From contig NZ_SULJ01000003.1 in the NCBI RefSeq assembly GCF_007115105.1, positions 62,001 to 126,000 of the forward strand: DNA of 64,000 bases. Direction: 5' to 3'. This DNA comes from Clostridium sp. HBUAS56010. GTDB taxonomy: Bacteria; Bacillota; Clostridia; Lachnospirales; Lachnospiraceae. The position numbers were made by a program, and so were the translations under genes. This document shows positions 13,778-57,472 of the stretch, one piece after another (positions within the stretch are counted from its first letter, which is position 1; the number at the start of each line of letters is the position of its first letter). The notes beneath the pieces are model-generated. The model was given only the letters and a program-made list of their open reading frames with translations. It was not told the DNA's origin and searched no databases.

Positions 13778-13925
13778 AATTTCCTCCACTGATTCAGACA
13801 GCTTCTCTGCAATTTCTCTGTGCTTCGTCAATCCTATTTTGCATTGACTTTCCTGACTTATTGTAACTTTTTTTTCAGCAGGAAGCAAGCGGCTGTTTTA
13901 AATCCCTTTTTTATATTCCTGAAAA

Positions 13926-13977
13926 CGAAAACCGGGCAGAGAAGAAAAACAATCTTTTCTTCTCTGCCCGGTTTTCG
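13926..13977 (-). terminator. strong intrinsic terminator of the helicase gene
   Basis: CGAAAACCGGGCAGAGAAG and its complement form a stem of more than 20 bp around a short loop, ending in TTTTCG. It lies 6 bases past the helicase stop. Confidence 0.9.
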
Positions 13978-13982
13978 GAAAT

Positions 13983-40912: not shown

Positions 40913-40950
40913 GATGTCATTTCCTCCTCTAATATACATGGGGGAATAAC

Positions 40951-40996: not shown

Positions 40997-41128
40997 CCTC
41001 TTATTGCTCGATTACTCGCTCAGGTTAGCACCTTCCAGCCTCATAGAATAGCGAAATGCCATCGTATGACCGGGGTTGCCGTGACTTCATAGATCCTCTG
41101 TATCTCCATCACTCTGAATAAGGGATAT
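40997..41128 (-). promoter_or_regulatory. SAM-I (S-box) riboswitch
   Basis: The minus strand carries the S-box landmarks: P1 arms TCCCTTATT and AATAAGAGGA, CAGAGTGATGGAG in place of the consensus AGAGAGGTGGAGGGA region, ATGAAGTCACGGCAACC with the invariant GGCAACC, and AAGGTGCTAACCTGAGC. It sits between a good promoter and the metK terminator. SAM binding stabilises P1 and favours termination, which is established for this class. Confidence 0.93.
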
Positions 41129-41216: not shown

Positions 41217-42158
41217 CTATTGGATTGTTCCCTTTTTTCCCCACAGATTTTCGGGATAAAGACCGGAATCCTTTAAATCCTGAACTGCCTTTACCACGGT
41301 GGCTTTATCCTCTTTATAGGTCACCCCATACCAGCGGTCAGGACTTTTTAACACCGTTACCTCTGCCTTATTCTCCTTTAAGAGTTCATCCACCACAAAG
41401 GGAAGAAAATATTCGCACTTTAAGGGATTCTTCTCCATCTCACGGTCTAAAAAGGCAGTAAAACGGTTGGAAAGCTCCGTAAGGATGCTGGAGGTAAAGC
41501 CCCATAAATTCATGGATACATAAGTCTCTTTCGAAAGAGGAGTAAAGCTTTTTCCCTCGTCTTCCGTATACTCCGCAATCTCTCCGTGCTTTTCAATCCT
41601 GGTGCGTTCATGGATATCAAGAAGTTTTCCTCTCTCATCAACGGTGCACACCCCTCTTGCCACATGACCGTTCTCCGTCAGGGTATTATAAAGCTCATAC
41701 GCTACCATGGCATAGCGGTATTTGTCATCATCACAAACCTTCGTAAGCTGCTGATAGATGTTGACAAATGCCCGTTTCCCATAATAATCATCTGCATTAA
41801 TTACCGCAAACGGACCGTCGATCACATCGCTGCAGCACAGGATTGCATGACCGGTTCCCCATGGCTTTTCCCGTCCCTCAGGAACCTTATAGCCCTTTGG
41901 AAGCTTATCAAGTTCCTGATAGACATACTGAACCTTTACATACTTTGACAAACGGTTGCCGATATGCTCTTTAAATTCTTTTTCAATGGATTTCTTAATG
42001 ATAAATATAACCGTTTCAAACCCGGCTTCCACCGCATCGTATATGGAAAAATCAATGATCTTATTTCCGTAGGAATCCACAGGATCAATCTGCTTCAATC
42101 CTCCGTAGCGACTTCCCATACCTGCTGCCATGATTACCAGAACCGGTTTCTGATTCAT
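41217..42158 (-). CDS. sugar-phosphate nucleotidyltransferase-like protein
   Basis: A 313-residue NTP-transferase fold protein. The nucleotide loop is VLVIMAAGMGSRYGGLKQID (about 6-25), followed by FVNADDYYG-like AVINADDYYGKRAF for the metal-binding Asp pair. It resembles a group of Firmicutes nucleotidyltransferases whose sugar is not defined; glucose-1-phosphate or a cell-surface sugar are possibilities. ATG 42158 follows GGAGGTAAC. It lies 95 bases after the long M20/ABC operon and may be read from it or from its own promoter. Confidence 0.85.
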   Translation of the reverse strand: MNQKPVLVIMAAGMGSRYGGLKQIDPVDSYGNKIIDFSIYDAVEAGFETVIFIIKKSIEKEFKEHIGNRLSKYVKVQYVYQELDKLPKGYKVPEGREKPWGTGHAILCCSDVIDGPFAVINADDYYGKRAFVNIYQQLTKVCDDDKYRYAMVAYELYNTLTENGHVARGVCTVDERGKLLDIHERTRIEKHGEIAEYTEDEGKSFTPLSKETYVSMNLWGFTSSILTELSNRFTAFLDREMEKNPLKCEYFLPFVVDELLKENKAEVTVLKSPDRWYGVTYKEDKATVVKAVQDLKDSGLYPENLWGKKGTIQ

Positions 42159-42253
42159 TTTGTTACCTCCGCTCAACTGTTTCTTTCCTATCTCTGCCAT
42201 TTTAGCACGGAACCAGCCTGCTGTCCAGACAGGGAAAGAAAGCGCCAGAAGAG

Positions 42254-43435
42254 TTACTGGTCAATAACCGATCCATCGGTGGATACTCTGGTTAAAATAT
42301 GGCGTTTAGAGTAAGGATACTTTTCCGCCGCACCCTCTGCCAGTGCCACTCCGATTCCAGGGGTATCCGGCAATTCCATGAACCCGTCTTTGCAGGAAAA
42401 GGTTCTGGTGACCACATCCTTTTTCCTTACTCCCTGCTCCACGCTGGTAGAACCGTAGCGCTCTGACATGGCAGGTTTGTCATCTCCTGTATATTCAAAC
42501 ATGGAAAAGCTTGGGGAAACGGCAGCAATCTGGAGACAGGCGGCTGTGGATACGGGGCTTAAAGGACTGTGAGGCACTACCAGCACATCCATGGCTTCTG
42601 CCAGGGCAGATATTTTTTTTGCCGCAGTGATTCCGCCTACCATACACACATCAGGGCGAATATAGGCAACTCCATCCCGTTTCATCAGCATGGCAAAATC
42701 CTGAAGGGAATTAAACCGCTCTCCCGTTGCAATGGGAATGGTGGTCCGGGCTGCAATCATGGCAGTGGAATCAAAGTTATCCGGTGTTGTGGGATCTTCC
42801 AAGAACATGGGAAGGGCTCCCTCAATCTGTTTGGAAAAGCTGATTGCTTCTGCAGGATTCAGCCTGCGGTGAAGCTCCAGGCACAGATCCACATCTCTTC
42901 CAACCGCCTCCCGAAAGGCATAAACCCGGTCTACGGCATCTCCGATCTTTTTGCTGTAAGGCTCAAAGTAAGGTTCGGATCTGGTACTGTCTAAAAACGG
43001 AGACAAGTGACCCACTGCATGAAACCCTTCTTCTTTCGCCTCTTTTAGATTTTCAATGACTTCCTCATTGGTTCGGCCTCCCACATGATAATAGACCCGT
43101 GCCTTATTCCTTACCTTTCCTCCCAGGAGCTCATAGACAGGCACCCCGTAGTGCTGCCCTGCAATATCCCAGAGAGCAATGTCAACAGCACTTAACGCCC
43201 CCATAATGGCAGCCCCTCTGAAATGCCAGCAGCGGTAAAGATACTGCCAGTGGTGTTCAATGGTCAAAGGATCTTTTCCAATGAGATATTCTCCAAACAG
43301 CTCTGCAGCCTCCTTTGACGCATCTAAAAATCCCCACGCACCTGATTCGCCCACTCCTTTCAGTCCGGTATCCGTGGTAATCTCCACAAACAGATACCGA
43401 TTGATCAAAAGCGGTTTTACTTCCTGTATTTTCAT
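42254..43435 (-). CDS. enolase-superfamily acid-sugar dehydratase
   Basis: A 393-residue mandelate racemase/muconate lactonizing enzyme homologue of the mannonate/galactonate dehydratase subgroup. Metal ligands Glu187 (LELHRR, with His189 as probable base), Glu213 (FLEDP) and Glu239 (ATGER), and the second catalytic His289 (VVPHSPLSP) are present. Such enzymes dehydrate an acid sugar to a 2-keto-3-deoxy acid, but specificity is not readable. It is the last tightly spaced gene of the M20/Dpp operon, 22 bases after the GNAT. This ties a sugar acid to the operon's substrate. Confidence 0.85.
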   Translation of the reverse strand: MKIQEVKPLLINRYLFVEITTDTGLKGVGESGAWGFLDASKEAAELFGEYLIGKDPLTIEHHWQYLYRCWHFRGAAIMGALSAVDIALWDIAGQHYGVPVYELLGGKVRNKARVYYHVGGRTNEEVIENLKEAKEEGFHAVGHLSPFLDSTRSEPYFEPYSKKIGDAVDRVYAFREAVGRDVDLCLELHRRLNPAEAISFSKQIEGALPMFLEDPTTPDNFDSTAMIAARTTIPIATGERFNSLQDFAMLMKRDGVAYIRPDVCMVGGITAAKKISALAEAMDVLVVPHSPLSPVSTAACLQIAAVSPSFSMFEYTGDDKPAMSERYGSTSVEQGVRKKDVVTRTFSCKDGFMELPDTPGIGVALAEGAAEKYPYSKRHILTRVSTDGSVIDQ

Positions 43436-43457
43436 AAGAATTCCCTGACCTTTCCTT

Positions 43458-43949
43458 TTATTTTGAGAAAACCTTTTCCATATAGACTGTGTGATGCTGT
43501 TTTCCTTCTAACTGGACTGTATTAAAAGGAACAAATCCCATGCCTTCATACATTGAGACCAGCCAGGGGTGTTCTTTTGCAGTTCCAAGGGTAACAGACG
43601 GGGTTTTTAATTCTTTTGTTAATACGTTCTTCTCCAGCTCATGAAGAAGCTTTTTCCCATAGCCATGCCCCTGGAAATCCGGATGAGTGACAAACCAGCC
43701 GATATGAGGCACCTTCTTAGGTCCCGGCAAAGGTCCCCATGGCATCCGGAGGGAAATGGAAGAAGCCAGTCTTCCATTTTCAAAAAATCCATAAGCCGGA
43801 TGAGCAGAAAACCAGGCAAGAGCCGTTTCTTTTGAAGCATGGATGGCTCCAAAGGTAATAGGGTAGTCTTTTAACGGGCTGTACCCTTCATGAAGCACCT
43901 CATACCACGCCTGCCCGTCTTCCTCTTCCAGTATGCGAAAACCATTCAT
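43458..43949 (-). CDS. GNAT-family N-acetyltransferase
   Basis: A 163-residue acetyl-CoA-dependent acyltransferase. The acetyl-CoA loop is FQGHGYGKKLLHELE (about 76-90), preceded by the strand HIGWFVTHP; the C-terminal strand reads MYEGMGFVPFNTVQLEGKQHHTVYM. AGGAAGGGG precedes the ATG. Embedded in the M20/Dpp operon between the lyase and the dehydratase. It may acetylate an amine released by the lyase, opposite to the M20 deacylase at the other end; this is inference. Confidence 0.85.
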   Translation of the reverse strand: MNGFRILEEEDGQAWYEVLHEGYSPLKDYPITFGAIHASKETALAWFSAHPAYGFFENGRLASSISLRMPWGPLPGPKKVPHIGWFVTHPDFQGHGYGKKLLHELEKNVLTKELKTPSVTLGTAKEHPWLVSMYEGMGFVPFNTVQLEGKQHHTVYMEKVFSK

Positions 43950-43983
43950 GTTACCCCTTCCTCTCTAAACATCGTTACTTCCT

Positions 43984-45342
43984 CTATAGATACCCTTTCT
44001 TTTTCAGGGCAAGAATCACCTCTTCCACTTTTTCTTCTGCAAGTCCGGTGTAGGTTTCCGGCACCAGCCAGCTCTCCACTTCCGTCCGGTCAAAACGAGC
44101 CGCAATCTCCGGCTGTTCCATTAATACATCTGCAAAAGAACGGTGCTCCTCATAGGACTTCATGGACGCTTCATAAACCAGATGATGAGCGGTCTGTTTT
44201 CCAAGCTTTTCTCCTACTTCAAACATTACCTTTTCAGAAAGAAGCAGACCATGCTGGGAATTTAAATTCTCATACATCCGCTCTTTATTTACTGTAATCC
44301 CCTGTAAGATTCCAATGAGAGAAGTAAGCTGATAAGAGGTATAAATATTGATTTCCGGAAGGGCAATCCATTCCAGACGCCAGGACATGGCATCTCTTTC
44401 ATGTTCCATATGGGCGGACTGGTAGATTAAACCAACGCTCTGTAATACAGCCGGTGTCAGACTGGCCAGACCTTCAAATGCGGCAGGGTTCCGTTTATGG
44501 GGCATGGTGGAAGAACCGATTTTTCCTTTGGTAAACTGTTCTTCAATCTCCCCGATTTCCGTACGCATCAGATTATAAAATTCATTGCCGATTTTCCCAA
44601 GAGTTGCTGAAATGGATGCCAGAACAGAAGCATATTCCGCAAACCGGTCACGGGCAGACTGCCAGCAGATATTGGGTGCATTTAAACCCAGATATTCCAT
44701 GGTCTTTTTTTCTACTTCAATGCCCCGGGGACCAAAAGAAGCATAGGTTCCTACCGCACCGCTCATACTTCCGGTAAATACCCGGTCTTTTAATGCTTCC
44801 AGACGTTCCCTGTGACGGCCGAATTCATCCAGCCAGACAGCCAGTTTATAACCAAAGGTAATGGGAAGCGCGTGAACTGCGTGGGTACGTCCTACCATGG
44901 GAAGAGACTTATATTTCTCCGCCATTTCCGCCAGAACACGGATCACTTCGCTGACATCCTCCAAAATATACCCATACGCCTGCTTTAGCTGAAGCATTGC
45001 TCCTGTATCCACAATATCCTGGGTGGTTGCACCGTAATGCACATATTCCCCTGCCTCTCCGGCAAGGGTCTGCAAGGTATGTATGGTTGCCATCAGGGAA
45101 TGTTTTGATGCGGCGGCTTCTTTTGCTACCTTCTCCACATCAAAATATTCTGCTTTTGCTGCTGATACAATGGCTTGTGCCGCTTCCTTGGGAATAATTC
45201 CCAAATCCGCTTCTGCCTTTGCAAGAGCCGCTTCTGCCTGAAGCTGTGCTGTGATACGGGCGGTGTCATCCCAGACCTTTCGCATCTTTTCCGTTCCAAA
45301 ATTATTTTGAAGCATGATGAGATCTATTACATGTGAAGCCAT
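43984..45342 (-). CDS. fumarase/adenylosuccinate-lyase superfamily lyase
   Basis: A 452-residue enzyme of the fumarase/aspartase superfamily. Conserved blocks: HYGATTQDIVDTG (102-114), GRTHAVHALP (151-160) and the fumarate-lyase signature SSTMPHKRNP (277-286) with catalytic Ser. It lacks context for purine synthesis: it sits in a catabolic operon, next to an MmgE/PrpD gene. Members of this superfamily cleave C-N bonds and release fumarate (adenylosuccinate, argininosuccinate, EDDS, iminodisuccinate) or cyclise muconates. I infer a C-N lyase on an N-substituted aspartate. Residence as the true PurB is possible but less likely. Confidence 0.85.
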   Translation of the reverse strand: MASHVIDLIMLQNNFGTEKMRKVWDDTARITAQLQAEAALAKAEADLGIIPKEAAQAIVSAAKAEYFDVEKVAKEAAASKHSLMATIHTLQTLAGEAGEYVHYGATTQDIVDTGAMLQLKQAYGYILEDVSEVIRVLAEMAEKYKSLPMVGRTHAVHALPITFGYKLAVWLDEFGRHRERLEALKDRVFTGSMSGAVGTYASFGPRGIEVEKKTMEYLGLNAPNICWQSARDRFAEYASVLASISATLGKIGNEFYNLMRTEIGEIEEQFTKGKIGSSTMPHKRNPAAFEGLASLTPAVLQSVGLIYQSAHMEHERDAMSWRLEWIALPEINIYTSYQLTSLIGILQGITVNKERMYENLNSQHGLLLSEKVMFEVGEKLGKQTAHHLVYEASMKSYEEHRSFADVLMEQPEIAARFDRTEVESWLVPETYTGLAEEKVEEVILALKKKGYL

Positions 45343-45403
45343 AGTGTTCTCCTTTTTTGTTTTATTTCAAACAGTTTTATTTCTTCGTTATGATTTACAT
45401 TGG

Positions 45404-46738
45404 TTAAAAGGGTCTGTGAATCCGGGTCAGTACCTCACACATTTCGGTTTTTTCCAAATCCCATATGGCGGCAACCAGCAATCTTTGCTCTTTTCCGTTT
45501 CCGAAAGAAAGGGAAAGCTTTTCCAGTTCATCATCAAGGGTGAGCGGATTATTGGGGGAACCTTTCGGAAATACAATGGACCGGGTCTCTTCGGATCCGT
45601 CATTTTTGACCACTGTTACGCTGGTATAAGGATCTCCATCTACTTCTGTAACTGTATAGCGGGTGATCCGTTTCAAATTTTCCCTCATGGTTTCTGACAG
45701 TTTTTTCTTTGAAAAACGTTCCAGATCATAAGTTTTCCCAGTCAGCCCCAGCCAGACAATATATTCAATAGAAAATCTCCCCTCTTCTCCGGTTTTGGGA
45801 TCTCTGGAATACAGGGCAGAATCCTTTCCCGGAAAAAATCCGATCCTTACTTCCTTTATATCATCTGTTTCATAAGCGAACTGCTGGCGAAGCTCCATAG
45901 CGGCATCGGCTCCCGGCAAAGCAGCAGAGCAGAACGGATATTTTTTCAGCCATAATCCTGGTGAAGCAATCCTCCAGCTTTTCCCCCAGTCTTTTTGAAG
46001 GGCATTTTTATACAGAAGCTCATTGTCTGATTTATAACCAAACAGATCAAAGAAACCAAACTTTTTATACAGGAATTCTGTCTCCCCATAAATTCCTGCC
46101 TGTACCAGCCTTACGGCTTCCAATGCGTTCCGGGCAGCAAAACCAATGTGCAACGCTTTTGCAGGTGTGCCAAACTGAGCACGCATTCCGCCGGACTGGG
46201 TCGCACCAATTCCCATGGCATGAGCTGTCTGAACCGGACTGAGTCCCATCAGACGGGAAAGTGCCGCTGCGGCTGCTATACTGCCAAGGGTGGAGGTGTT
46301 GTGCCAGCCTTTTAAATAGTGTTCCGGGTTCACTGCTTCCCCCAGTCGTGCCATGACTTCCACTCCCGTTATATAGGCCGCCAGAAAATCTTTTCCCGAA
46401 TGCTCCGGCGTTGCTGCGGTCAGCAGAGCAGATAAAATCACCGCACCGGGATGTCCCCTTACATCACCATGGACGTCATCAATATCCAGAAGATGGGCAC
46501 GGAATCCATTGACAACCGCTTTGGCACTTTCCGGCACCTCTTCCTGTAACACTGTGGATATTCCTTTAAAATCTCCCATGCCATATACCTGCTGTACCGT
46601 TTTTAATTCCTCTTCTCCTGTGGCAAGAAGGGAGGACGCAAGGTAATCCAGAAGCCCGACTTTTGCAGCACTGACTGCCTCAGAATCTTTTATAGGATCT
46701 GTTTCAATAACCATCTGCGCCAATTTCAGACTATCCAT
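45404..46738 (-). CDS. MmgE/PrpD family protein (epimerase or dehydratase)
   Basis: A 444-residue member of the 2-methylcitrate dehydratase/iminodisuccinate epimerase family. The conserved acidic-His block LDIDDVHGDVRGHPGA (84-99) and the C-terminal G-P-N-PLTLDDEL-EK region are present. Family members include methylcitrate dehydratase, cis-aconitate decarboxylase and, in Agrobacterium, an iminodisuccinate epimerase that works with a C-N lyase. Here the next gene is exactly such a lyase-superfamily enzyme. No methylcitrate synthase or lyase is near, which speaks against propionate catabolism. GGAGGT lies within the preceding gene's end. Confidence 0.88.
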   Translation of the reverse strand: MDSLKLAQMVIETDPIKDSEAVSAAKVGLLDYLASSLLATGEEELKTVQQVYGMGDFKGISTVLQEEVPESAKAVVNGFRAHLLDIDDVHGDVRGHPGAVILSALLTAATPEHSGKDFLAAYITGVEVMARLGEAVNPEHYLKGWHNTSTLGSIAAAAALSRLMGLSPVQTAHAMGIGATQSGGMRAQFGTPAKALHIGFAARNALEAVRLVQAGIYGETEFLYKKFGFFDLFGYKSDNELLYKNALQKDWGKSWRIASPGLWLKKYPFCSAALPGADAAMELRQQFAYETDDIKEVRIGFFPGKDSALYSRDPKTGEEGRFSIEYIVWLGLTGKTYDLERFSKKKLSETMRENLKRITRYTVTEVDGDPYTSVTVVKNDGSEETRSIVFPKGSPNNPLTLDDELEKLSLSFGNGKEQRLLVAAIWDLEKTEMCEVLTRIHRPF

Positions 46739-46741
46739 CTC

Positions 46742-47644
46742 TTAATACCTCCCTGCTTCATCACATAATACAAAATGCCCTTTGGAAACTTCTCTCAGTT
46801 TCTTCTCTGCCCGATCTGTTTCATCAGGAACGTAAGGAATCGCCTGCCGTTTCCGCTCAATCAATGGTTCTGGAACGGGTATGGTTGAGAGAAGGCTTTG
46901 TGTATAGGGATGTATGGGATTTTCATACAGTTCCTCGGCAAAAGCCAGTTCTACCAGCCTGCCCCGGTACATGACTCCAATCCGGCGGCTGATGTATTTT
47001 ACCATGGACAGATCGTGAGCAATAAACAGATAGCTGAGGTTCTTCAACTGCTGCAGATCCCGCAGGAGATTGACAATCTGCGCCTGCACAGACACATCTA
47101 AGGATGAGATCGGCTCATCACAAACCACCAGTTCCGGCGTTACCGCCAGTGCTCTTGCAATTCCGATTCTCTGCCGCTGACCACCGGAAAATTCATGGGG
47201 ATAGCGGTCCATATGAGACTTCTCCAGTCCAACCAGTTCCAGCAGTTCTCCCACCTTTTCTCTCTTTTCATCCCTTGAATTTACCAGGGAAAAAATCTCC
47301 ATGCTTTCTCCAATCACGCTTTCAATGGTCATCTTGGGATTTAAGGAGGAATAAGGGTCCTGGAAGATCATCTGAATGGATTTCCGGTAAGCCGCCCTTT
47401 CCTGTCTGTTTTTTAAATGAAGAATGGACTGGTCCCGGAAACGAATGTCTCCGCTGGTTGGTTTATGAAGCTTTAAGATGGCTTTTCCCGTTGTGGATTT
47501 TCCGCACCCCGATTCCCCAACCAGACCAAAGGTTTCCCCTTCCTCTATTTCGAAACTCAAATCATTCACTGCCTTTACAGGCTTTGGTGAATAACGGTTA
47601 TAAACATGGGTCAGATGATCCACGGTTAATATGGTTTTACTCAT
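46742..47644 (-). CDS. oligopeptide/dipeptide ABC ATPase (DppF/OppF type)
   Basis: A 300-residue ATPase. Walker A GESGCGKS, signature FSGGQRQRIGIARAL, Walker B LVVCDEPISSLD and the C-terminal oligopeptide transporter extension (YTQSLLSTIPVPEP) are intact. ATG 47644 with GAAAGG 8 bases before it is preferred to ATG 47674. It stands last of the transporter genes in the operon and forms a heterodimer with the DppD-type ATPase. Confidence 0.92.
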   Translation of the reverse strand: MSKTILTVDHLTHVYNRYSPKPVKAVNDLSFEIEEGETFGLVGESGCGKSTTGKAILKLHKPTSGDIRFRDQSILHLKNRQERAAYRKSIQMIFQDPYSSLNPKMTIESVIGESMEIFSLVNSRDEKREKVGELLELVGLEKSHMDRYPHEFSGGQRQRIGIARALAVTPELVVCDEPISSLDVSVQAQIVNLLRDLQQLKNLSYLFIAHDLSMVKYISRRIGVMYRGRLVELAFAEELYENPIHPYTQSLLSTIPVPEPLIERKRQAIPYVPDETDRAEKKLREVSKGHFVLCDEAGRY

Positions 47645-47680
47645 AATAAAAACCTTTCCCTTTCCATGGGGCATCCCCTG

Positions 47681-48745
47681 CTATAATGATGCACTGCCAT
47701 AAGATTTTAATTGAAGCAGATCGTCATAGATCTTATATCGTCTGGCAATCTCCGGTGGAAGCGTTACTTCCGGTGCATCAGAAGCCAGAAGCCAGGTAGC
47801 TGCATAATGGGTCTCTGTTATGGGAAAAAGAGGTGCTTCCTCCAGTGCGTCCCGGTCCAGAGCAAAATAGTTGCGGGGTGCAAACGGATCTCCCGTAACC
47901 GGATTCATTAAATTAGGCGGTGAACCCGGTATGGTAAAGAGCCGTTCCTCTCCTGTTTTGGTGGTTGGCATCGCCTCAAGCAGCCCCCAGGTATAAGGAT
48001 GATTTGGATGGTAAAACACTTCTTCTGCCGTACCGATCTCCACAATACGCCCTGCATACATAACTGCCACCCGGTCTGCAATGTTTGCTACCACACCAAG
48101 ATCGTGGGTAATGAACAAAATGGCAGTTCCGGTCTTTTTCTGGATGTCTTTGAGCAGATCCAGAATCTGTGCCTGAATGGTAGTATCCAGGGCAGTGGTG
48201 CACTCGTCTGCAATCAGAATATCAGGCTCACAGGCAAGGGTAACGGCAATTAAAAGCCGCTGTCTCTGTCCGCCGGAAAACTGGTAAGGGTACTTTTTCA
48301 GACATCCTTTCGGGTCTGGAATTCCCACCAGTTCCAGCAGTTCCAGCACTCGTTTCTTCACCGTTCTCCGGTCTGTAAGATGATGATTTTTAATGGACTC
48401 TGTAATCTGAGCTTCGATGTTCATACTGGGATTTAAGGAAGTCATGGGGTCCTGAAAGATCATTCCAATGGATCTCCCACGAAATTCCTGCCATTCCTTT
48501 TTGCTCTTCTGATAAACGTCTTCTCCCTGGAACAGCACCGTCCCTCCGGTTACAGAGGCATTCTCAGGCAAAAGCCCCATAAGGCTTTTGCTGGTTACGG
48601 ATTTACCGGAACCAGACTCCCCTACCAAAGCTAAGGTTTCTCCTGCTTTTAAATCAAAGGATACTCCCCGGATAATCTCTGCCTTTTTCGATTTGGTCAA
48701 AAAAGTGACTTTTAGATCTTTTACTTCCAATAATGGCTGGCTCAC
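47681..48745 (-). CDS. oligopeptide/dipeptide ABC ATPase (DppD/OppD type)
   Basis: A 354-residue ATPase of the peptide/nickel family. Walker A GESGSGKS, signature FSGGQRQRLLIAV, Walker B ILIADECTTALD and the C-terminal iron-sulfur-like or oligopeptide extension with PGSPPNL are visible. The GTG start at 48745 follows AAGGAGGAGGAA; the ORF reaches 48844 but overlaps the binding-protein gene there. It is 16 bases after the binding-protein stop. Confidence 0.92.
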   Translation of the reverse strand: MSQPLLEVKDLKVTFLTKSKKAEIIRGVSFDLKAGETLALVGESGSGKSVTSKSLMGLLPENASVTGGTVLFQGEDVYQKSKKEWQEFRGRSIGMIFQDPMTSLNPSMNIEAQITESIKNHHLTDRRTVKKRVLELLELVGIPDPKGCLKKYPYQFSGGQRQRLLIAVTLACEPDILIADECTTALDTTIQAQILDLLKDIQKKTGTAILFITHDLGVVANIADRVAVMYAGRIVEIGTAEEVFYHPNHPYTWGLLEAMPTTKTGEERLFTIPGSPPNLMNPVTGDPFAPRNYFALDRDALEEAPLFPITETHYAATWLLASDAPEVTLPPEIARRYKIYDDLLQLKSYGSASL

Positions 48746-48761
48746 TGGTTCCTCCTCCTTT

Positions 48762-50321
48762 TTATTTACTGAATATAATCTGTGATAAATCTGGCTGCTG
48801 TCTGGAATCAAAGACAAAGTTGGTGATCTTGTTGGTATAGCCATAGCTTACTTTCTGGAATACAATGGGAATGGAATAATAGCTGTTCCAGCAGTACTCC
48901 TGAAGTTCCTTATAGATTTCTTTCCGTTTTGCATCGTCTGATTCTGCTCTTCCCTTTGCCATCAGCTCATCAATATGAGGATCATTGGCATTTAAAGCGC
49001 CCTTATAACCAGACTGCCAGTTCGCAAGGGCATGATCCGGGTCTCCGGTAGAAGTGGTAAAGTTACTTCTGCCAAAACGGGTCAGTCCAGCCGCATTGTT
49101 ATCTTTATAGGTTGCCTGATCAAGCGGAGTAATGGTTACCTTAATTCCTGCCTCTGCCCACATCTGCTGTGCAATCTCAAGAGCCGCCTGTGTGGTGGCA
49201 CTTTCTCCAAACGTGATCTCTGTCTGGATTCCGTCTGGATATCCTGCCTCTGCCAGAAGACGTTTGGCTTCTTCTACATCCTGCTTGATCGGTCCGATGG
49301 AAACGTGTCCGTACACCTTATCACTGAAAATAGAATCCGCCGGTTCTCCAAGCTCTCCCCATACTGCATTTACGATGGAAGGTACATCAAGAGCCAGTGA
49401 CATTGCTTTTCGTACACGAATATCTGAAAATTCATCGGCAGTCATGCTCAAAAGAAACAACTCATGGGTAAATCCAGTTCCAACCTCTGTTATCAGATCA
49501 GGATTTGATTTAATCCGTTCGTAATCTGCCGGATAGATATCAAAGAGAAAATCCACGCCTCCGGATTCCAGTTCAATGGAGCGAACGCTGGCATCTGGAA
49601 TAATTCTTGCGATAAAGTTCTGGTAAGTTGCTTTGGGTCCCCAGTAATCAGGATTTCTCTCCAGAATAATCCGGTCACCAGATTCCCACTTAGAGAACTG
49701 GAAGGGGCCGGTTCCAACTGGTTCCAGTCCAAATCCGTCTAACCCCTTTTCTTCTGCTGCCTTTTTGGATACAATATATCCTCTTGATGTTGCCAAATAA
49801 GCCAGTGCACCGGAAAATGGTTCTTTTAACTTTACATCAACGGTGTAATCATCAACCACAGCGGTATTCTCTCCGTCAAATGCTTTAAAGATAGACGCGG
49901 AAAGCGGAATCTCTGTAGCTCTCTGAATGGTATAACGTACATCTTCTGCAGTCATTTTCTCTCCGTTATGGAACGTTACATCCTGGCGAAGATGAAACCG
50001 GATAGTAAGGGGATCAGGAAACTCCCAGGATTCGGCTAATGAAGGCTTAATGTCTCCATTTTCCTCTCTGGCTACCAAGGTGTCAAACATCTGTGCCTGC
50101 ACCTGATAAGCAGATACCACACCTACATTCTGAGGATCTAAAGACCCTGGCTCATTGGCAATGGCAACTACAAGAGTGTCTCTGGCATTTTTTACTTCGC
50201 CCTGTGTTTCACTTGCATTTCCGGATTCACCGGCTGCTGTTGCTGCAGATTCTGTTTTTCCGCAGCCGCTTAATAACACCATAGATAACAGTCCTGCTGC
50301 AAGTATCATTCTTTTCTTCAT
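48762..50321 (-). CDS. ABC substrate-binding lipoprotein, family 5
   Basis: A 519-residue extracellular lipoprotein. Signal peptide with lipobox LLSGCGK (Cys near 20), a Ser/Thr/Glu-rich linker, then the SBP_bac_5 domain: NEPGSLDPQNVG, PLTIRFHLRQDVTFHNGE, GTGPFQFSKWESGDRI, LERNPDYWG. The family binds di- and oligopeptides, nickel chelates, opines and glutathione. Start codon 50321 overlaps the S9 peptidase stop by 4 bases, so peptidase and binder are co-translated. Ligand unknown; operon partners suggest an N-substituted amino acid or peptide conjugate. Confidence 0.92.
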   Translation of the reverse strand: MKKRMILAAGLLSMVLLSGCGKTESAATAAGESGNASETQGEVKNARDTLVVAIANEPGSLDPQNVGVVSAYQVQAQMFDTLVAREENGDIKPSLAESWEFPDPLTIRFHLRQDVTFHNGEKMTAEDVRYTIQRATEIPLSASIFKAFDGENTAVVDDYTVDVKLKEPFSGALAYLATSRGYIVSKKAAEEKGLDGFGLEPVGTGPFQFSKWESGDRIILERNPDYWGPKATYQNFIARIIPDASVRSIELESGGVDFLFDIYPADYERIKSNPDLITEVGTGFTHELFLLSMTADEFSDIRVRKAMSLALDVPSIVNAVWGELGEPADSIFSDKVYGHVSIGPIKQDVEEAKRLLAEAGYPDGIQTEITFGESATTQAALEIAQQMWAEAGIKVTITPLDQATYKDNNAAGLTRFGRSNFTTSTGDPDHALANWQSGYKGALNANDPHIDELMAKGRAESDDAKRKEIYKELQEYCWNSYYSIPIVFQKVSYGYTNKITNFVFDSRQQPDLSQIIFSK

Positions 50322-52234
50322 ATAATTTTCCCTCTTTCTTCTATTCCAGATGATGGTTTTAAATAGGACGCAAACCATTTCCGGATCTCCCTGCTGTGTT
50401 TCAACCTTGCCTGAGGTTTCCCGGTTGCAGTCAGTCCGTGGCTCTCTCCTTTAAATATCACTAATTTTGCGGGCACTCCGCTAAGTTTTAAGGCGGTATA
50501 CATCTGAATGGCTTCCTCTATGGGACAGCGCAGATCCCCTTCTGCATGAACGAGCAACGTGGGTGTTGTGCACTGGCTGATATATTGGACAGGAGAAGCA
50601 TCCCAGAATTCCTGGAAGTCTTCCCACACCCGGTTATGAAGTCTTACCAGAGGATAGCGAAAGCCCGTGTCGCTTGCCATCTGCTTGCTGATCCGGTTAC
50701 TGATACTGCGCACCGAAACCGCACAGGCAAACCGATTGGTCTGGGTGATCATCCAGTTGGTTAAATATCCACCGTAAGACCCTCCTGTAATCCCAATCCT
50801 CTGGGGATCAATCTGCTTCCAGGTTTCTAAAGCAAGATCCAGAGACTTTAAAATATCCTCCATATCAGTTTTTCCATTGTTTCCGATTACATCGGCAAAC
50901 TGATTATCCAGTCCGTCGCTGCCTCTTGGATTACAGAATATAACAAAATATCCCTCATCCGACCATAACTGAAAGTCAATCATCAGCGCATCTCTGCCAT
51001 ATGCCATCTTATGTCCGCCATGTATGGACACAATCGCCGGACAACATCGGACTCCCTCAGGCAGATGCCTGGGAGGAAGAACAAAATAATCCACCGGCTG
51101 TCCCTCCGGAGAAAATTCACCGGGAACAGGTCGGACTGGCTTCAACTTATCATTTATATCCGGATGAAAGTCTGATACTTGTTTTTTGATGCCTGCCTCA
51201 TACACATACAGTTCATCAAACCCAAGCAGATAAGACCCTGATACCAGAAGCCTTCCATCAAAAAAGCACTGGAAATCATCGGTTACACCTTCTTCATGAA
51301 GTGCGGTGGTTATAGTTCCTTCCCAGTCCAGTTTTTTTATAATTCCGTCTCCCCGGAACGTGGAAAGATAATAAAGCCCGTCTTTTCCCAAGCCATATCG
51401 TCTGGCTGTGGATTTCCAGTCCCGCACTACGGTATGACTGGCGCTCTCTTCGTTGGCAGCAAATAAAGTAAGACTGCCGGACTCACTAAGCTTATAAAAA
51501 TCAGGATTCTGGTTTGGACCAAAACGCTTCATATCCGATGCAGCCAGTAAAAGGTAATCGCCCCATGGCTGTATGGTATCAATCCGGTAAATGAAATCTT
51601 TCAGCAGCAGCCGGGGCACCTCTTCCCCATCCCATGGGATTTCGTACACGGCACTGTGCTGAAAATCAACCCGGCTTTCCTGTCTTTCATATCCCGTTAT
51701 ATAGATCCTGCCCTTTAATACCGTCACCAACTGAACCTGATATTGTGCTGATACAATCCGTTTCCATGTCTGGCTTTCCTTATTCAGAACCCATAACGTG
51801 CCAAACTGTCTGATGTAGCCTTTCCCATCTGCCAGAAAAGGAAGACTTTCTGTTGTGAAAAAGTCCGGGTCCTGCAAGATCTCTTCCTGCAATTTAAACA
51901 GGAGATGATCGGAATCCAGGAAAAGCACCTGCTCCACCCTTGCCGGGCAGGAAAAACCAGACTTCTCACCCGTTCTTACGTCAAGAACCCGGTAATCATG
52001 ATCCTTTTCCCATATCAGAAGACAGTTGTCTGACAACCACCATACACTTGCCTGCTGTACCGGATCTGCGTCAAGGACTGGCTTCCATGTATTTGAATCA
52101 TAAACGGAAAGCTGATATTCATTTTTATTTTCTTCCAGATTTGGCTGTCTGCGGACCACTGCCGCCAGAGCTTCATCTGGAGACTTTTGTATGCAGGTAA
52201 TGACTCCCTGCCCAATGTATTGTTCGTCTGTCAT
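50318..52234 (-). CDS. S9-family (prolyl oligopeptidase-like) serine peptidase
   Basis: A 638-residue acylaminoacyl-peptidase-type enzyme without signal peptide. Residues 1-370 form a beta-propeller-like domain; the alpha/beta hydrolase domain follows. Catalytic triad: Ser486 in GGSYGGYLTNW, Asp567 in HAEGDLRCP and His599 in GESHGL. It would hydrolyse small acyl-peptides after import. It is inserted between the permease genes and the binding-protein gene, an uncommon but informative position: peptide import and cleavage are coupled. The start at 52234 has AGAGG upstream. Confidence 0.9.
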   Translation of the reverse strand: MTDEQYIGQGVITCIQKSPDEALAAVVRRQPNLEENKNEYQLSVYDSNTWKPVLDADPVQQASVWWLSDNCLLIWEKDHDYRVLDVRTGEKSGFSCPARVEQVLFLDSDHLLFKLQEEILQDPDFFTTESLPFLADGKGYIRQFGTLWVLNKESQTWKRIVSAQYQVQLVTVLKGRIYITGYERQESRVDFQHSAVYEIPWDGEEVPRLLLKDFIYRIDTIQPWGDYLLLAASDMKRFGPNQNPDFYKLSESGSLTLFAANEESASHTVVRDWKSTARRYGLGKDGLYYLSTFRGDGIIKKLDWEGTITTALHEEGVTDDFQCFFDGRLLVSGSYLLGFDELYVYEAGIKKQVSDFHPDINDKLKPVRPVPGEFSPEGQPVDYFVLPPRHLPEGVRCCPAIVSIHGGHKMAYGRDALMIDFQLWSDEGYFVIFCNPRGSDGLDNQFADVIGNNGKTDMEDILKSLDLALETWKQIDPQRIGITGGSYGGYLTNWMITQTNRFACAVSVRSISNRISKQMASDTGFRYPLVRLHNRVWEDFQEFWDASPVQYISQCTTPTLLVHAEGDLRCPIEEAIQMYTALKLSGVPAKLVIFKGESHGLTATGKPQARLKHSREIRKWFASYLKPSSGIEERGKII

Positions 52235-52247
52235 ATCAGCCTCTTTC

Positions 52248-53135
52248 TTACTTTTCCTGTGGATCTAAGGCATCCCGCAGACCGTCGCCAAGAAGATTCA
52301 GCGCACAGACCGTCGCCATAATGGCAATTCCCGGAAATGTGACAATCCACCAGGCATTTCTGATATAAGCCCTTCCTGCGGATATCATACTGCCCCATTC
52401 AGCCGCCGGGGGCTGAACGCCTAATCCGATAAAGCTTAAACTGGCAGCGGTTAATATGGCTCCTGCCATACCGGCAGATGCCTGAATGACAATAGGGGCA
52501 AGGATATTGGGAAGAATGTGGCGCATGATAACTCTTGCCGAACCCGCACCGCTGACAATGGCGGCATCTACAAAATCAAGCCCTTTCACATCCAAAACAC
52601 TTCCCCGGACAATCCTTGCATAAACCGGAATAGAACTGATGCCTACCGCAATCATGGCATTGACCAGTCCTGGTCCCATGGCAGCGGATAAAGCAATGGC
52701 AAGCAAAAGCCCTGGCACCGACTGCATGATATCAATGACACACATCACCGCATGATCTACAATCCCTCCCCACCATGCCGCCATAATTCCAGCAAAGGTT
52801 CCGATGGAACAGCCGATCCCAACGGAAATCAGGCCAATCACAAGGGATACTCTGGAACCGTAAATTACACGGCTGAACACATCTCTGCCAAAATTATCGG
52901 TTCCAAAGAGATGGGCATTGGATGGCGGTGCATAGAGATTTTTCAAATCCTGCCCTTCAAAGGAATAAGGGGCAATCTGAGGGGCAAAAATAGCGATCAG
53001 TGCAAAAATCAGTAAAATGACTGTCCCCACAACAGCCATGGGATTTTTACAAAACCGTCTGCCGAAATGTTCCCTCTGCTGCTGTACGTCGGCAGTCTTT
53101 TCTATCAGCCCTTCTACATAAGGTACTCGTTCCAT
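52248..53135 (-). CDS. peptide ABC transporter permease (DppC type)
   Basis: A 295-residue permease with six membrane helices. A short cytoplasmic N-terminus carries the OppC N domain (FGRRFCKNPMAVVG). The EAA loop is DAAIVSGAGSARVIMRHILPN (about 192-212). ATG 53135 is 7 bases after GGAGG; the ATG at 53141 is too close to that site. It pairs with the DppB-type permease, 12 bases upstream. Confidence 0.92.
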   Translation of the reverse strand: MERVPYVEGLIEKTADVQQQREHFGRRFCKNPMAVVGTVILLIFALIAIFAPQIAPYSFEGQDLKNLYAPPSNAHLFGTDNFGRDVFSRVIYGSRVSLVIGLISVGIGCSIGTFAGIMAAWWGGIVDHAVMCVIDIMQSVPGLLLAIALSAAMGPGLVNAMIAVGISSIPVYARIVRGSVLDVKGLDFVDAAIVSGAGSARVIMRHILPNILAPIVIQASAGMAGAILTAASLSFIGLGVQPPAAEWGSMISAGRAYIRNAWWIVTFPGIAIMATVCALNLLGDGLRDALDPQEK

Positions 53136-53147
53136 TCTCATTCCTCC

Positions 53148-54089
53148 CTAATCCCGCCGAAGCTGTTCTTTGATCTGCGGGTTAATATGGGTATACAAAA
53201 TATCCACAAACAGATTGATCAGACAATAGGAAATGGAAATCAGGAAGACACTTGCCTGAACAACGGGATAATCCCTGGATTTAATCGAATCTACAATCAG
53301 CTTTCCAAGACCGGGAAGAGCGAAGATGGATTCTGCAATCACAGAGCCGCTTAAAGCATTTCCGAATCTCAGCCCCACAACCGTTACAATGGGAATTAGG
53401 GCATTCATTAACGCATGTCTGGTGATGACCTGAAATTCCGTGGTTCCCTTGGCTCTTGCGGTCATAATGTAATCTTTTTTCAAGGTGTCCAGCATACTTG
53501 CCCTTGTAATCCTTAAAATAGTGGACGCCATATGGATTCCGATGGTCACGGACGGTAAAATCCAGTATTTCCACCCGTAGGAGCCGCTGGCTGGAAGCCA
53601 TCGAAGCTGAAGGGAAAATACAAGAATGAATAAAATCGCCTGCCAGAACTGGGGCATGGATACGCCTAACAGGGCAATCAGTCTGGACAGGTTATCAATC
53701 AGCTTATTCTGATAAATAGCAGATAAAATTCCCAGAGGAATGGCAATCAAAAGTGCCACCAGGGTACTTAACAGAGCCAGTTTAATGGTCGTTGGAAAAC
53801 GGGAGAGAATATCTCCTGTAACCGGGCGCCCGGTTACATAGGAAACACCCAGATCTCCTTTTAAGACATTTGAGATAAACCGAAGATACTGTTTTCCATA
53901 AGGCTGGTTCAGTCCCAGTTCATCCTGCATTTTTGCAATCTGCTCTTCCGTTGCCTCATCTCCAAGAATCATTCTCGCAGGATCTCCAGGTGTAAAGTAA
54001 AGCAGTGTAAAAATCAGCACTGAAACCCCAAAGAATACCACGACCATGGACAGAAGCCGTTTTGAAATATATTTTAACATTGCTGTCAT
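53148..54089 (-). CDS. peptide ABC transporter permease (DppB type)
   Basis: A 313-residue permease, six helices, starting LKYISKRLLSMVVVFFGVSVL, with the DppB periplasmic loop FTPGDPARMILG and the EAA loop MTARAKGTTEFQVITRHALM (about 199-218). GGGAGG precedes the start. It follows the M20 gene by 14 bases and is the first transporter gene of the operon. Confidence 0.92.
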   Translation of the reverse strand: MTAMLKYISKRLLSMVVVFFGVSVLIFTLLYFTPGDPARMILGDEATEEQIAKMQDELGLNQPYGKQYLRFISNVLKGDLGVSYVTGRPVTGDILSRFPTTIKLALLSTLVALLIAIPLGILSAIYQNKLIDNLSRLIALLGVSMPQFWQAILFILVFSLQLRWLPASGSYGWKYWILPSVTIGIHMASTILRITRASMLDTLKKDYIMTARAKGTTEFQVITRHALMNALIPIVTVVGLRFGNALSGSVIAESIFALPGLGKLIVDSIKSRDYPVVQASVFLISISYCLINLFVDILYTHINPQIKEQLRRD

Positions 54090-54103
54090 AGCCTCCCTTT
54101 TTG

Positions 54104-55396
54104 CTATTGATCATATCTTTTTGGTACCGGACGGTTGGCTGCTTTGCGGAAATCATCAATATCTCCCTCAAATGCCTGGAAATCCGCCGGAACGTCCCGT
54201 TTCTCGCTTAAATAGGTAAGTGCCAGGGAACAATAAAGTGCCGTTCCATAAGGCAATCCTTCCTCATCAATATCAAAATCTGACTGATGTGCCGATGCCG
54301 TGATTCCTTTTTCTTCATTGCCAACTCCTATCCGTAAAAAAGAGGAAGGATAAAATGCCGACAGGGTCGAAAAACTTTCTGATCCCATACCAACCGGCAC
54401 TTCCACCACATGGTCCTGAGCTACAACGTTCTCTGCAGCCTCTTTGGCAATGGCACTGTTGACAGGTTCGTTATAAACCGGAAAGCTGGGTCCGGTAAAC
54501 TCCACAAATTCAGCCGTACAATCATAAACCTGACTGATTCCTTCAATGGTCTGACTCATCTTTTCTTTAAAGATCAGACCGGATTCCCGTTCATGAAACC
54601 GGACTGTTCCAAGAAAGGTCAGGCTGTCGGGAACGATGTTACGTTTTTCCCCGCTATGTACGCTTCCAATGTTATAGGTAATTGGACTGTTGGGGGATAT
54701 ATACTTCATTCGAAGGTCTTTCAGCGCATTACCAATTGCGAGAAAACAGTCAATGGGATTATTGGCTTTATCTGGTCTGGAACCATGCCCCTTTTTGCCA
54801 TGAAGTCTGATCTCAAAGTTTACATTACCCGAATTGACAGTTCCAGTTCGAAGTCCTATGGTTCCTACGGGAAATGACGTATCTACATGAATGCCATAGC
54901 AGGCATCAATTTGAATCTTTTCCTTTTGTATTTCCTTCATTACATAATAAATGCAGTTCCCGCCTTCTTCCCCTCGCTCAAAGAGGAAATAAATCCGCCC
55001 CGCAAACTGGCTGGTCTTGTCTTTTAAAATCTTTACTGCACTGAGAAGCATCGCCGTATGAGCATCATGACCGCAGGCATGGGCAACTCCTGGAACTTGA
55101 CTGACACAGGTCTTTTGATACCTGGTGTTATTCTCTGATTCCTGTATAGGCAGCGCGTCGCAGTCCGCCCGTAACAAAACGCTTTGCCCTTCTTCTGCCC
55201 CATCTAACCAGGCAAGCACTCCCCCATCCGGGATATTTCTGTAAGAAACCGTTTCTGCCTCAAGTTCCTTTATGATATAAGCGATGGTCTGAAATTCTCT
55301 GGAAGTCAACTCCGGGTGTTCGTGTAAGTGCCTTCTGATTTTCAGACTGTAAGAATACAGCCTTTTTGCTTCCTCAAGCCATAATAAATCTGACAT
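54104..55396 (-). CDS. M20-family amidohydrolase (aminoacylase/carboxypeptidase-like)
   Basis: A 430-residue zinc amidohydrolase of the M20D (IAA-amino acid hydrolase/HipO) type. Metal ligands and base are visible in RADCDALPI, HACGHDAHTAML and LFERGEEGGNC; the dimerisation lid follows (about 185-300). It removes an acyl or amido group from N-acyl amino acids or small peptides in the cytoplasm. First gene of the long operon; GGAAGGAG precedes the ATG. It is the nearest gene to the repeat-rich leader, so any leader control acts on it first. Confidence 0.9.
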   Translation of the reverse strand: MSDLLWLEEAKRLYSYSLKIRRHLHEHPELTSREFQTIAYIIKELEAETVSYRNIPDGGVLAWLDGAEEGQSVLLRADCDALPIQESENNTRYQKTCVSQVPGVAHACGHDAHTAMLLSAVKILKDKTSQFAGRIYFLFERGEEGGNCIYYVMKEIQKEKIQIDACYGIHVDTSFPVGTIGLRTGTVNSGNVNFEIRLHGKKGHGSRPDKANNPIDCFLAIGNALKDLRMKYISPNSPITYNIGSVHSGEKRNIVPDSLTFLGTVRFHERESGLIFKEKMSQTIEGISQVYDCTAEFVEFTGPSFPVYNEPVNSAIAKEAAENVVAQDHVVEVPVGMGSESFSTLSAFYPSSFLRIGVGNEEKGITASAHQSDFDIDEEGLPYGTALYCSLALTYLSEKRDVPADFQAFEGDIDDFRKAANRPVPKRYDQ

Positions 55397-55435
55397 CCGA
55401 TACAGCTCCTTCCTTTATGTGCATTTTAGTTTCTC

Positions 55436-55582
55436 TTGGTTTTTGTTGGGTTTGATTCTTGTGTTATCATTTGGTGGTTGTGTTTGTTGGTTTCTGTATT
55501 ATTTGGTGGTTGTGTCAGTTGGTTTCTGTGTTACCTGGTTTCTGTGTTAATTAGTTTTTGTGCTGACTGGTTTTGGCATTAA
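55436..55582 (-). repeat. 16-bp tandem repeat array in the M20 operon leader
   Basis: Seven units of exactly 16 bp run without gaps from 55471 to 55582 (starts 55471, 55487, 55503, 55519, 55535, 55551, 55567). On the plus strand the consensus is TTGGTTTCTGTGTTAN, with a variant TTGGTGGTTGTGTNNG alternating in units 1 and 3. Two looser units precede it at 55436 and 55452. It lies within the presumed transcript, 40-186 bases before the M20 start; the RNA would be A/C-rich and unstructured (TTAACACAGAAACCAG per unit). Confidence 0.85.
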
Positions 55583-55630
55583 GAGGTTTTCGCTTTATCT
55601 TATTTCAGATACAACTGTTTTTTCCTAATT

Positions 55631-55649
55631 ACATACCACTATTGTATGT
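55631..55649. promoter_or_regulatory. palindrome at the M20 operon start site
   Basis: ACATAC-N7-GTATGT, a perfect inverted repeat just downstream of the predicted transcription start near 55654. It is a candidate repressor operator; the regulator is unknown. Confidence 0.45.
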
Positions 55650-55660
55650 TAATATGCAGA

Positions 55661-55689
55661 ATAATAACATAAATGTTTTCTATCGTCAA
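55661..55689 (-). promoter_or_regulatory. sigma-A promoter of the M20/Dpp/lyase operon
   Basis: On the minus strand TTGACG (55684-55689), 17 bases, TATTAT (55661-55666). Transcription starting near 55654 would leave a leader of about 258 bases. Confidence 0.7.
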
Positions 55690-56179: not shown

Positions 56180-57472
56180 TTAACCGACTTTTAATTTAAA
56201 TTTTTTTGCTTCCTTCTCGGAATCAACCTTTTCTATCATAGCACCAAGGCCCTGAAGCTTCTCTTCAAAGCATTCATACCCTCTCTGGATATAACCAATC
56301 TCATCCACGACTGTATATCCATCTGCCGCCAGTCCTGCAATCACCAACGCAGCACCTGCACGCAGATCAGGAGCATTGACAAATGCACCGGTAAACGCAC
56401 CAACTCCATCAATCACTGCCACATTCCCCTCTACCTTTATACTGGCTCCCATACGGGAAAGCTCATCCACATAGCGGAAACGGTTTTCGAAAATACTCTC
56501 GGTTACCACACTGGTTCCATTAGCTAAAGCTAGTGTAACCGCCATCTGCGGCTGCATATCCGTAGGAAAACCCGGATATGGAAGAGTCTTTATATCTGTA
56601 TGCTTCTGGCTCGTCTTTCCAACCACACGAACCGCATCATCAAACTCTACAACTTCACATCCCATCTCCAGAAGCTTCGCAGAAATTGCTTCTAAATGCT
56701 TGGGAATAACATTCTTTACCATGATATCGCCACGGGTAATGGCTGCAGCACACATGAAAGTTCCTGCCTCAATCTGATCCGGAATAATCGAATACTCGGT
56801 TCCATGAAGCTTTCTTACACCACGGATGCGGATGGTATCTGTACCGGCTCCCTTGATATTGGCTCCCATACTGTTCAGGAAATTGGCAACGTCAACCACA
56901 TGAGGTTCCTTTGCCACGTTTTCCAAAATAGTCTGTCCTTCTGCAAGGGTTGCCGCCATCATGACGTTAATGGTTGCACCAACACTGACCACATCCAGAT
57001 AGATGTGGCTTGCCACCAAATCAATGGCATGGGCAATCACTGCCCCTCTTTCAATCTTCACCTCAGCACCAAGTGCACGGAAACCTTTTAAATGCTGGTC
57101 AATGGGTCTGCTTCCAATGTTACAGCCTCCCGGAAGTGGAACCTGGGCACTTTTATACTTTCCAAGCATTGCTCCAATAAAATAGTATGACGCCCTGATC
57201 TTACGAATATAATCATCATCAACCGAAACTTCCCGAATGGTTCCTCCATTGATGCGAACCGTATGTCTGTCAATCCGTTCAACGCCTGCACCAATCTCTT
57301 CAATCGCTTCTAATAAAACATTAATGTCGCGGACATCGGGTAAATTATCAATAAGAACGTCTTCATCTGTCATGATTGCTGCTGCCAGAATTCCTAAAGC
57401 GGCATTCTTTGCCCCGCCAATGGTGACTTCACCAACCAGGGGATTCCCGCCCTTCATAATATACTGCTCCAT
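56180..57472 (-). CDS. murA: UDP-N-acetylglucosamine 1-carboxyvinyltransferase
   Basis: A 430-residue enzyme that transfers enolpyruvate from PEP to UDP-GlcNAc, first committed step of peptidoglycan synthesis. Conserved GGAKNAAL (19-26, Lys22) and the fosfomycin-target Cys117 in PGGCNIGSRPID are present, so the enzyme should be fosfomycin-sensitive. Firmicutes often have two copies, murA and murZ; which one this is cannot be told. It is transcribed after the 833-residue protein gene, with a 108-base gap, and ends at a strong terminator. Confidence 0.95.
   Translation of the reverse strand: MEQYIMKGGNPLVGEVTIGGAKNAALGILAAAIMTDEDVLIDNLPDVRDINVLLEAIEEIGAGVERIDRHTVRINGGTIREVSVDDDYIRKIRASYYFIGAMLGKYKSAQVPLPGGCNIGSRPIDQHLKGFRALGAEVKIERGAVIAHAIDLVASHIYLDVVSVGATINVMMAATLAEGQTILENVAKEPHVVDVANFLNSMGANIKGAGTDTIRIRGVRKLHGTEYSIIPDQIEAGTFMCAAAITRGDIMVKNVIPKHLEAISAKLLEMGCEVVEFDDAVRVVGKTSQKHTDIKTLPYPGFPTDMQPQMAVTLALANGTSVVTESIFENRFRYVDELSRMGASIKVEGNVAVIDGVGAFTGAFVNAPDLRAGAALVIAGLAADGYTVVDEIGYIQRGYECFEEKLQGLGAMIEKVDSEKEAKKFKLKVG

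Follow-up and report, generated by a model that had tools for sequence, protein, structure and literature searches.

S-(2-succino)cysteine (2SC) is cysteine alkylated by fumarate, and two routes for its breakdown in bacteria are described in the literature cited here (PMC9706529, PMC12757645). The yxeKLMNOPQ (scm) operon of Bacillus subtilis follows a scheme of acetylation, breakdown and deacetylation, with YxeL-, YxeP- and YxeQ-type proteins and the oxygen-dependent monooxygenase YxeK (PMC9706529, PMC12757645). Enterococcus italicus and Dickeya dadantii carry yxe/scm loci with an S-(2-succino) lyase (2SL) (Hillmann et al., 2022, PMC9706529), a yxe/scm locus being defined as a cluster of at least three of YxeK, YxeL, YxeMNO, YxeP and YxeQ (PMC9706529). 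The window analysed here, a stretch of 64,000 nucleotides from Clostridium sp. HBUAS56010 (contig NZ_SULJ01000003.1), contains eleven genes at 42254-55396 on the minus strand that very probably constitute a variant 2SC breakdown operon. Its core is a known pathway, described in 2022 and recognised here in this genome. What is new here is that this core is joined to genes for an importer of the peptide type and for peptidases, whose functions we infer.

The window resembles the loci with 2SL in that a 2SL-type lyase, a YxeL-type GNAT acetyltransferase, a YxeQ-type MmgE/PrpD protein, an M20 enzyme and an ABC importer are clustered. It differs from them in having a five-part importer of the Dpp/Opp type in place of the amino-acid-type ABC importer YxeMNO, in the addition of an S9 peptidase and an enolase-superfamily protein, and in an M20 enzyme of a distant branch. 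Compared with the B. subtilis operon, an oxygen-independent lyase replaces the oxygen-dependent monooxygenase, and the importer differs as well. All eleven proteins are assigned to other families, so that none is left for YxeK, whose place is taken by 2SL. In the order of transcription, the genes encode M20, DppB, DppC, S9, the solute-binding protein (SBP), DppD, DppF, MmgE/PrpD, lyase, GNAT and the enolase-superfamily protein; their coordinates were confirmed, and each of the eleven proteins matched the expected Pfam family above cut-off:

55397..55689 (-), upstream leader; promoter-like TTGACG-17-TATTAT at 55689-55661 (consensus match only)
54104..55396 (-), M20 amidohydrolase of 430 aa, encoded by the first gene; distant-branch relative of the N-acetylcysteine deacetylase YxeP/ScmP; putative deacetylase or peptide/acyl hydrolase
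53148..54089 (-), DppB-type permease
52248..53141 (-), DppC-type permease; 77% against its counterpart in locus L012 (Scatolibacter rhodanostii)
50318..52234 (-), S9 serine peptidase, acylaminoacyl-peptidase-like; GGSYGG motif; matches the S9 peptidase 7EP9 in the PDB (295 bits)
48762..50321 (-), SBP_bac_5 solute-binding protein with a lipoprotein-like N terminus; start placed at MKKRM (start of the listed open reading frame 50378)
47681..48844 (-) as listed, DppD-type ATPase; probable true start a GTG near 48745
46742..47674 (-), DppF-type ATPase
45404..46738 (-), MmgE/PrpD protein, YxeQ type; proposed epimerase of the succinyl stereocentre
43984..45342 (-), S-(2-succino) lyase (2SL), fumarase/aspartase superfamily; 66% to the lyase of E. 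italicus DSM 15952
43458..43949 (-), GNAT acetyltransferase, YxeL/ScmL type; proposed 2SC N-acetyltransferase; 54% to the GNAT of the E. italicus locus
42254..43435 (-), enolase-superfamily protein, acid-sugar-dehydratase subgroup

The tight spacing of eleven genes on one strand, proposed in a first-pass annotation of the window, is borne out. With the open reading frames as listed, the intergenic gaps measure 3 to 61 nt and none is longer; only the frames given for SBP and DppD run into adjacent genes. If SBP begins at its probable start, the S9 stop and the SBP start share an ATGA at 50318-50321. A terminator scan gave 17 hits against 15.8 +/- 3.8 in shuffles, which is no excess, and a promoter scan gave 38 against 27.5 +/- 4.8, a small one. 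The eleven genes likely form one transcript.

A scan of genome contigs for the lyase, which yielded 40 related loci, gave as best matches proteins of Scatolibacter rhodanostii (83%), of a Clostridiales metagenome-assembled genome (MAG; locus L013, 75%) and of E. italicus DSM 15952 (66%). In the tree, the window lyase forms one clade with the E. italicus DSM 15952 lyase (support 96/89). PurB and ArgH of the window's genome, 3C8T and Tad1 all lie outside the clade of lyases from 2SL loci. The lyase keeps 117 of the 119 positions that are invariant in 36 other lyases; at the same positions 3C8T keeps 82, Tad1 75 and the genome's PurB 52. This count excludes the window's own copy (L055), two partial sequences (L048 and L050) and a PurB (L057), and L012 and L013 stood outside the reference set. 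The 2SL of E. italicus DSM 15952 (UniProt E6LDH5) has been cloned; it converts N-acetyl-2SC to fumarate and N-acetylcysteine, also cleaves 2SC, and complements a B. subtilis delta-yxeK strain (PMC9706529). Our E. italicus locus (L014), of the yxe type with PrpD, lyase, GNAT, amino-acid ABC and M20 genes, was equated with E6LDH5 by strain and locus and not by accession match. By its sequence, the window lyase is predicted to be an orthologue of the assayed 2SL.

A GNAT homologue is present in all 40 lyase loci and adjoins the lyase in 38 of them, one of these (L050) being counted from its match range; in L026 and L032 it lies upstream, with about 5 kb between the starts. PrpD occurs in 36/40 loci, those without it being L036, L038, L042 and L050. 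An amino-acid permease and SBP of the E. italicus type are likewise found in 36/40; the four exceptions are L012 and L013, where the Dpp type is present instead, and the short contigs L043 and L045. M20 proteins of any branch occur in 19/40 loci, 18 of them at least 40% identical to the E. italicus M20, and the Dpp-type SBP (2/40), the enolase-superfamily gene (2/40; L012, 88%, and L013, 51%) and S9 (1/40) are confined to very few. From these counts it follows that GNAT and lyase form a constant core, accompanied by PrpD in most loci, and that the window, like L012 and L013, has a variant in which the importer is of the peptide type and an enolase-superfamily gene is present. S. rhodanostii has all eleven genes in an identical order (54-89% identity), and the Clostridiales MAG has ten of the eleven, reordered and without S9. 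The arrangement is therefore not due to chance, and the earlier view of one gene block uniting importer and enzymes stands.

In the MAG locus, the PrpD gene is split in two pieces (180-1520). The cluster is followed there by an esterase, a protein whose ATP-grasp matches are weak and do not reach the cut-off, a GshA-like ligase, a cystathionine-lyase-type enzyme and a PatB C-S lyase, which, going by these protein families, is a sulphur-metabolism neighbourhood. Three of the loci without PrpD in the stretch examined (L036, L038 and L042) combine 2SL with a YxeK-like monooxygenase (56-57% to a Staphylococcus cohnii plasmid protein), and L029 has a weaker YxeK-like monooxygenase (44%) besides 2SL. 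The S. cohnii plasmid itself carries a yxe-type cluster of monooxygenase, GNAT, amino-acid ABC and PrpD genes (L009, 4611-10029). PrpD matches occur in 126 plasmid records, this plasmid among them, and five of the records were examined; a YxeK-like monooxygenase gene is present in 4/5 of these stretches, L010 being the one without. Yet another yxe-type cluster (L057, 8396-16205; PrpD, amino-acid ABC, GNAT) is followed directly by purB and purA, and neither 2SL proper nor a hit for the YxeK-like query was found in it; PurB might conceivably act as a substitute there.

The window GNAT is 38-42% identical to the GNATs near YxeK-like genes in L009, L011 and L056 (alignment without L055 and with the rows from plasmid loci kept), consistent with a YxeL-type acetyltransferase. 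For the M20 protein, YxeP of B. subtilis (1YSJ) is the second-best PDB match (172 bits). Among the other M20 proteins of the genome, the best reaches 36% against the M20 of the E. italicus locus.

In Agrobacterium, an iminodisuccinate (IDS) lyase is paired with an epimerase. The window is similar in that an MmgE/PrpD protein of the epimerase type (epimerase: PMC7347537) stands beside a fumarase-superfamily lyase, and the analogy drawn in the first-pass annotation holds to this extent: the proposed catalytic bases of the IDS epimerase, H99 and Y145, align with H96 and Y141 of the window PrpD, and both are kept. The window departs from the Agrobacterium module in the modest identity of its PrpD to the IDS epimerase (about 31%), in a lyase of the S-succino clade and in the presence of GNAT and M20. 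The solved structures closest to the window PrpD are bsIRG1 (7BRA), followed by the IDS epimerase, with mammalian IRG1 and the MmgE/PrpD dehydratases farther away. If 7BRA is taken to be YxeQ, as we infer, the window protein would be a YxeQ-type MmgE/PrpD protein, and we propose that proteins of this type epimerise the succinyl centre. The active-site residues H277 and Y318 of mammalian IRG1, the cis-aconitate decarboxylase (CAD), are not conserved in bsIRG1 (PMC7347537). In the literature searched, YxeQ is named in only two papers, PMC9706529 and PMC8752978, a table of the latter giving it as uncharacterised; the name scmQ does not occur in the one paper retrieved for it. The bases were counted in the PrpD alignment without the duplicates L055, L005 and L006; the two-piece PrpD of L013 fell under the length filter. 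A role in aconitate or itaconate metabolism was considered and set aside, as the lyase appears apart from Tad1 in the tree and the PrpD nearer to bsIRG1 and the IDS epimerase than to mammalian IRG1.

We propose the following pathway. The Dpp-type ABC importer would take up peptides containing 2SC, 2SC itself, or both, and the S9 hydrolase, the M20 hydrolase or the two together would liberate 2SC. GNAT, by homology, would then N-acetylate 2SC, and the YxeQ-type PrpD would interconvert the diastereomers at the succinyl carbon, making both usable. The lyase, by its close homology to the assayed enzyme, would eliminate N-acetylcysteine with release of fumarate, and an M20 enzyme, that of the window or another, would deacetylate the product to cysteine. 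Cysteine would serve as a source of sulphur and nitrogen, and fumarate would enter central metabolism. Free 2SC is stated to be the only form that the published 2SC enzymes attack, succinated proteins and glutathione (GSH) not being substrates, and larger molecules therefore need prior hydrolysis (PMC12757645). The importer and peptidases of the window may supply that missing hydrolysis step for succinated peptides.

More tentatively, and at rather less than even odds, we suggest that the operon scavenges succinated peptides from fumarate-damaged proteins, using an oxygen-independent lyase and a YxeQ-type PrpD as dedicated epimerase for both diastereomers. If true, this would fill two gaps of the published pathway, the source of 2SC and the role of YxeQ: the locus suggests how 2SC might be obtained from larger, peptide-bound material and offers a concrete role for YxeQ. 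2SC is also a disease biomarker of fumarate overload. In the literature searched, with most subscription papers and all supplements outside our reach, no text linking 2SL to a peptide importer was found. The first-pass annotation knew no description of the gene combination; the core has been described (Hillmann et al., 2022, PMC9706529), whereas the statement may still apply to the added Dpp, S9 and enolase-superfamily genes.

Several observations weigh against the assignment as a 2SC operon with peptide uptake. Matches of the SBP are spread over binders of peptides, nickel, heme and agrocinopine, and DppB passes one NCBIfam cut-off among the models listed, that of the nickel permease Opp2B (361.5 against 350); peptide import is for these reasons not certain. 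For DppC, models of D,D-dipeptide, oligopeptide and glutathione permeases score best, none of them reaching its cut-off. The window M20 is only 30% identical to that of the E. italicus locus, and in S. rhodanostii a second M20 (13182-14318), directly after the enolase-superfamily gene, is nearer to the E. italicus type (42%), which makes the deacetylation step uncertain. Unless the window M20 is counted as YxeP, the window has two of the five yxe components plus 2SL and falls short of the three-of-five rule. No riboswitch or T-box was detected ahead of the operon at Rfam gathering thresholds. YxeQ is described as a protein of unknown function (PMC9706529), and the authors of 7BRA, going by docking, treat bsIRG1 as a cis-aconitate decarboxylase (PMC7347537). 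The enolase-superfamily gene is unexplained by the 2SC pathway. Members of this superfamily usually have a His-Asp dyad motif, and the Asp aligned with it is Cys in L013; this and the occurrence of the gene in only 2/40 related loci led us to reject a sugar-acid substrate.

In this lyase superfamily, high identity does not guarantee the substrate (PMC9706529), and the window lyase passes the purB equivalog model TIGR00928 with 380.7 bits (cut-off 326.2), close to the 388.2 bits of the genome's own PurB. A rival reading would make it a paralogue of adenylosuccinate lyase or of 3-carboxymuconate cycloisomerase (CMLE) in an unrelated peptide and sugar-acid operon; CMLE and Tad1 are indeed among the nearest solved structures. 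However, the TIGR00928 label does not discriminate, because the lyase of the E. italicus 2SL locus passes as well (367.7). With the NCBIfam adenylosuccinate lyase subfamily model the window lyase scores 461.5 bits, below the cut-off of 626. The genome holds three Lyase_1 proteins at E <= 0.001: the window lyase, ArgH (L001, 642.7 bits) and a PurB beside purF (L003) that is 23% identical to the window lyase. The case that this lyase is the genome's only PurB, which the first-pass annotation had allowed for, is thereby excluded, and we rejected PurB identity on the grounds of the separate PurB and the unspecific model; given also the locus context, we see next to no chance for a paralogue of this kind. 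Adenylosuccinate lyase labels from automatic annotation can hide 2SL genes. The first-pass annotation itself read the operon as a system that takes up an N-(1,2-dicarboxyethyl) amino acid, such as iminodisuccinate, ethylenediamine disuccinate (EDDS), an opine or a glycation product, and cleaves its C-N bond, with PrpD as epimerase. Superfamily members do cleave N-succino bonds (PMC9706529), the IDS epimerase bases are retained and the importer is of the Dpp type. Nevertheless, the lyase shares a clade with the lyase of an assayed C-S lyase locus (the IDS and EDDS lyases standing outside the sequence comparison), and the 2SC-type GNAT travels with it in 40/40 related loci. We consider C-N cleavage very improbable, and beyond superfamily membership nothing in this comparison supports opine, glycation or aminopolycarboxylate substrates. 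Since the nearest assayed protein is an S-(2-succino) lyase and the lyase travels with a 2SC-type GNAT, succinated cysteine is the most likely substrate, and the bond cleaved is probably C-S rather than C-N. Of the earlier interpretation, the gene block, the non-PurB lyase and the PrpD kinship are retained, and the bond cleaved and the substrate class are not. Within C-S cleavage, the same core might act on another succinated thiol, such as a conjugate of a small thiol or of a peptide that is processed without acetylation. Such a role, which we judge improbable, would fit the promiscuity of 2SL enzymes towards small thiols (PMC9706529), the changed importer type and the presence of other transporters beside distant lyase-PrpD pairs that have no GNAT match (L060 and L061). 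GNAT and M20 are retained here, though, as in the scheme of acetylation, breakdown and deacetylation, and the published 2SL enzymes are inactive on GSH and CoA.

Proteins close to the window PrpD and lyase are rare among related genomes. Counts that include the genome of the window give a close PrpD in 1/299 genomes of the family (E 1e-40), 1/391 of the class and 3/398 of the phylum (both E 1e-60), and a close lyase in 1/392 genomes of the order (E 1e-130) and 3/398 of the phylum (E 1e-120). None of the four other genomes of the same genus listed in the order scan has a close lyase at E 1e-130. Horizontal gain and wide loss are both possible explanations of this distribution. A yxe operon has previously been noted in the Clostridioides difficile pangenome (PMC9170149).

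The two other hits in the phylum, L060 and L061, have more distant lyases of 46-50% and PrpD proteins of 28-29% identity; a GNAT match is absent from the stretches examined. In the tree, the L060 lyase is placed beside the 2SL clade (97/78) and that of L061 with 3C8T and Tad1 (98/84), both on long branches; we judge from sequence that neither is a 2SL orthologue. H96 and Y141 are kept in both PrpD proteins, and R94 is replaced by Ile in both. Because L060 and L061 pair a lyase with a PrpD that keeps H96 and Y141, the pairing of an epimerase-type PrpD with a fumarase-superfamily lyase may recur as a module for succino-adducts. In L060 (192-7363), the lyase (50%) and PrpD stand with a protein of the serine-dehydratase-alpha family and a TctA/TctC-type tricarboxylate transporter. 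The serine-dehydratase-alpha family includes cysteine desulfidases, and CyuA came up as a remote fold match in a structure search; 2SC or a different succino-adduct might be broken down directly there. In L061 (5773-16342), genes for a TRAP transporter, for a two-subunit fumarase and for succinate dehydrogenase/fumarate reductase accompany the lyase (46%) and PrpD.

The G+C content of the operon is 46.6%, compared with 42.7% for the window. The leader ahead of the M20 gene (55400-55600, minus strand) is A/C-rich, with repeated words such as CACAGAAACCA, and murA lies upstream of the operon at 56180-57472. The downstream neighbour, an open reading frame at 41217-42200, is nucleotidyltransferase-like by eye, with no NCBIfam match at 1e-60. 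It is followed by metK (39725-40939), directly ahead of which a SAM riboswitch (Rfam RF00162, 59.5 bits) is found at 40998-41124 on the minus strand.

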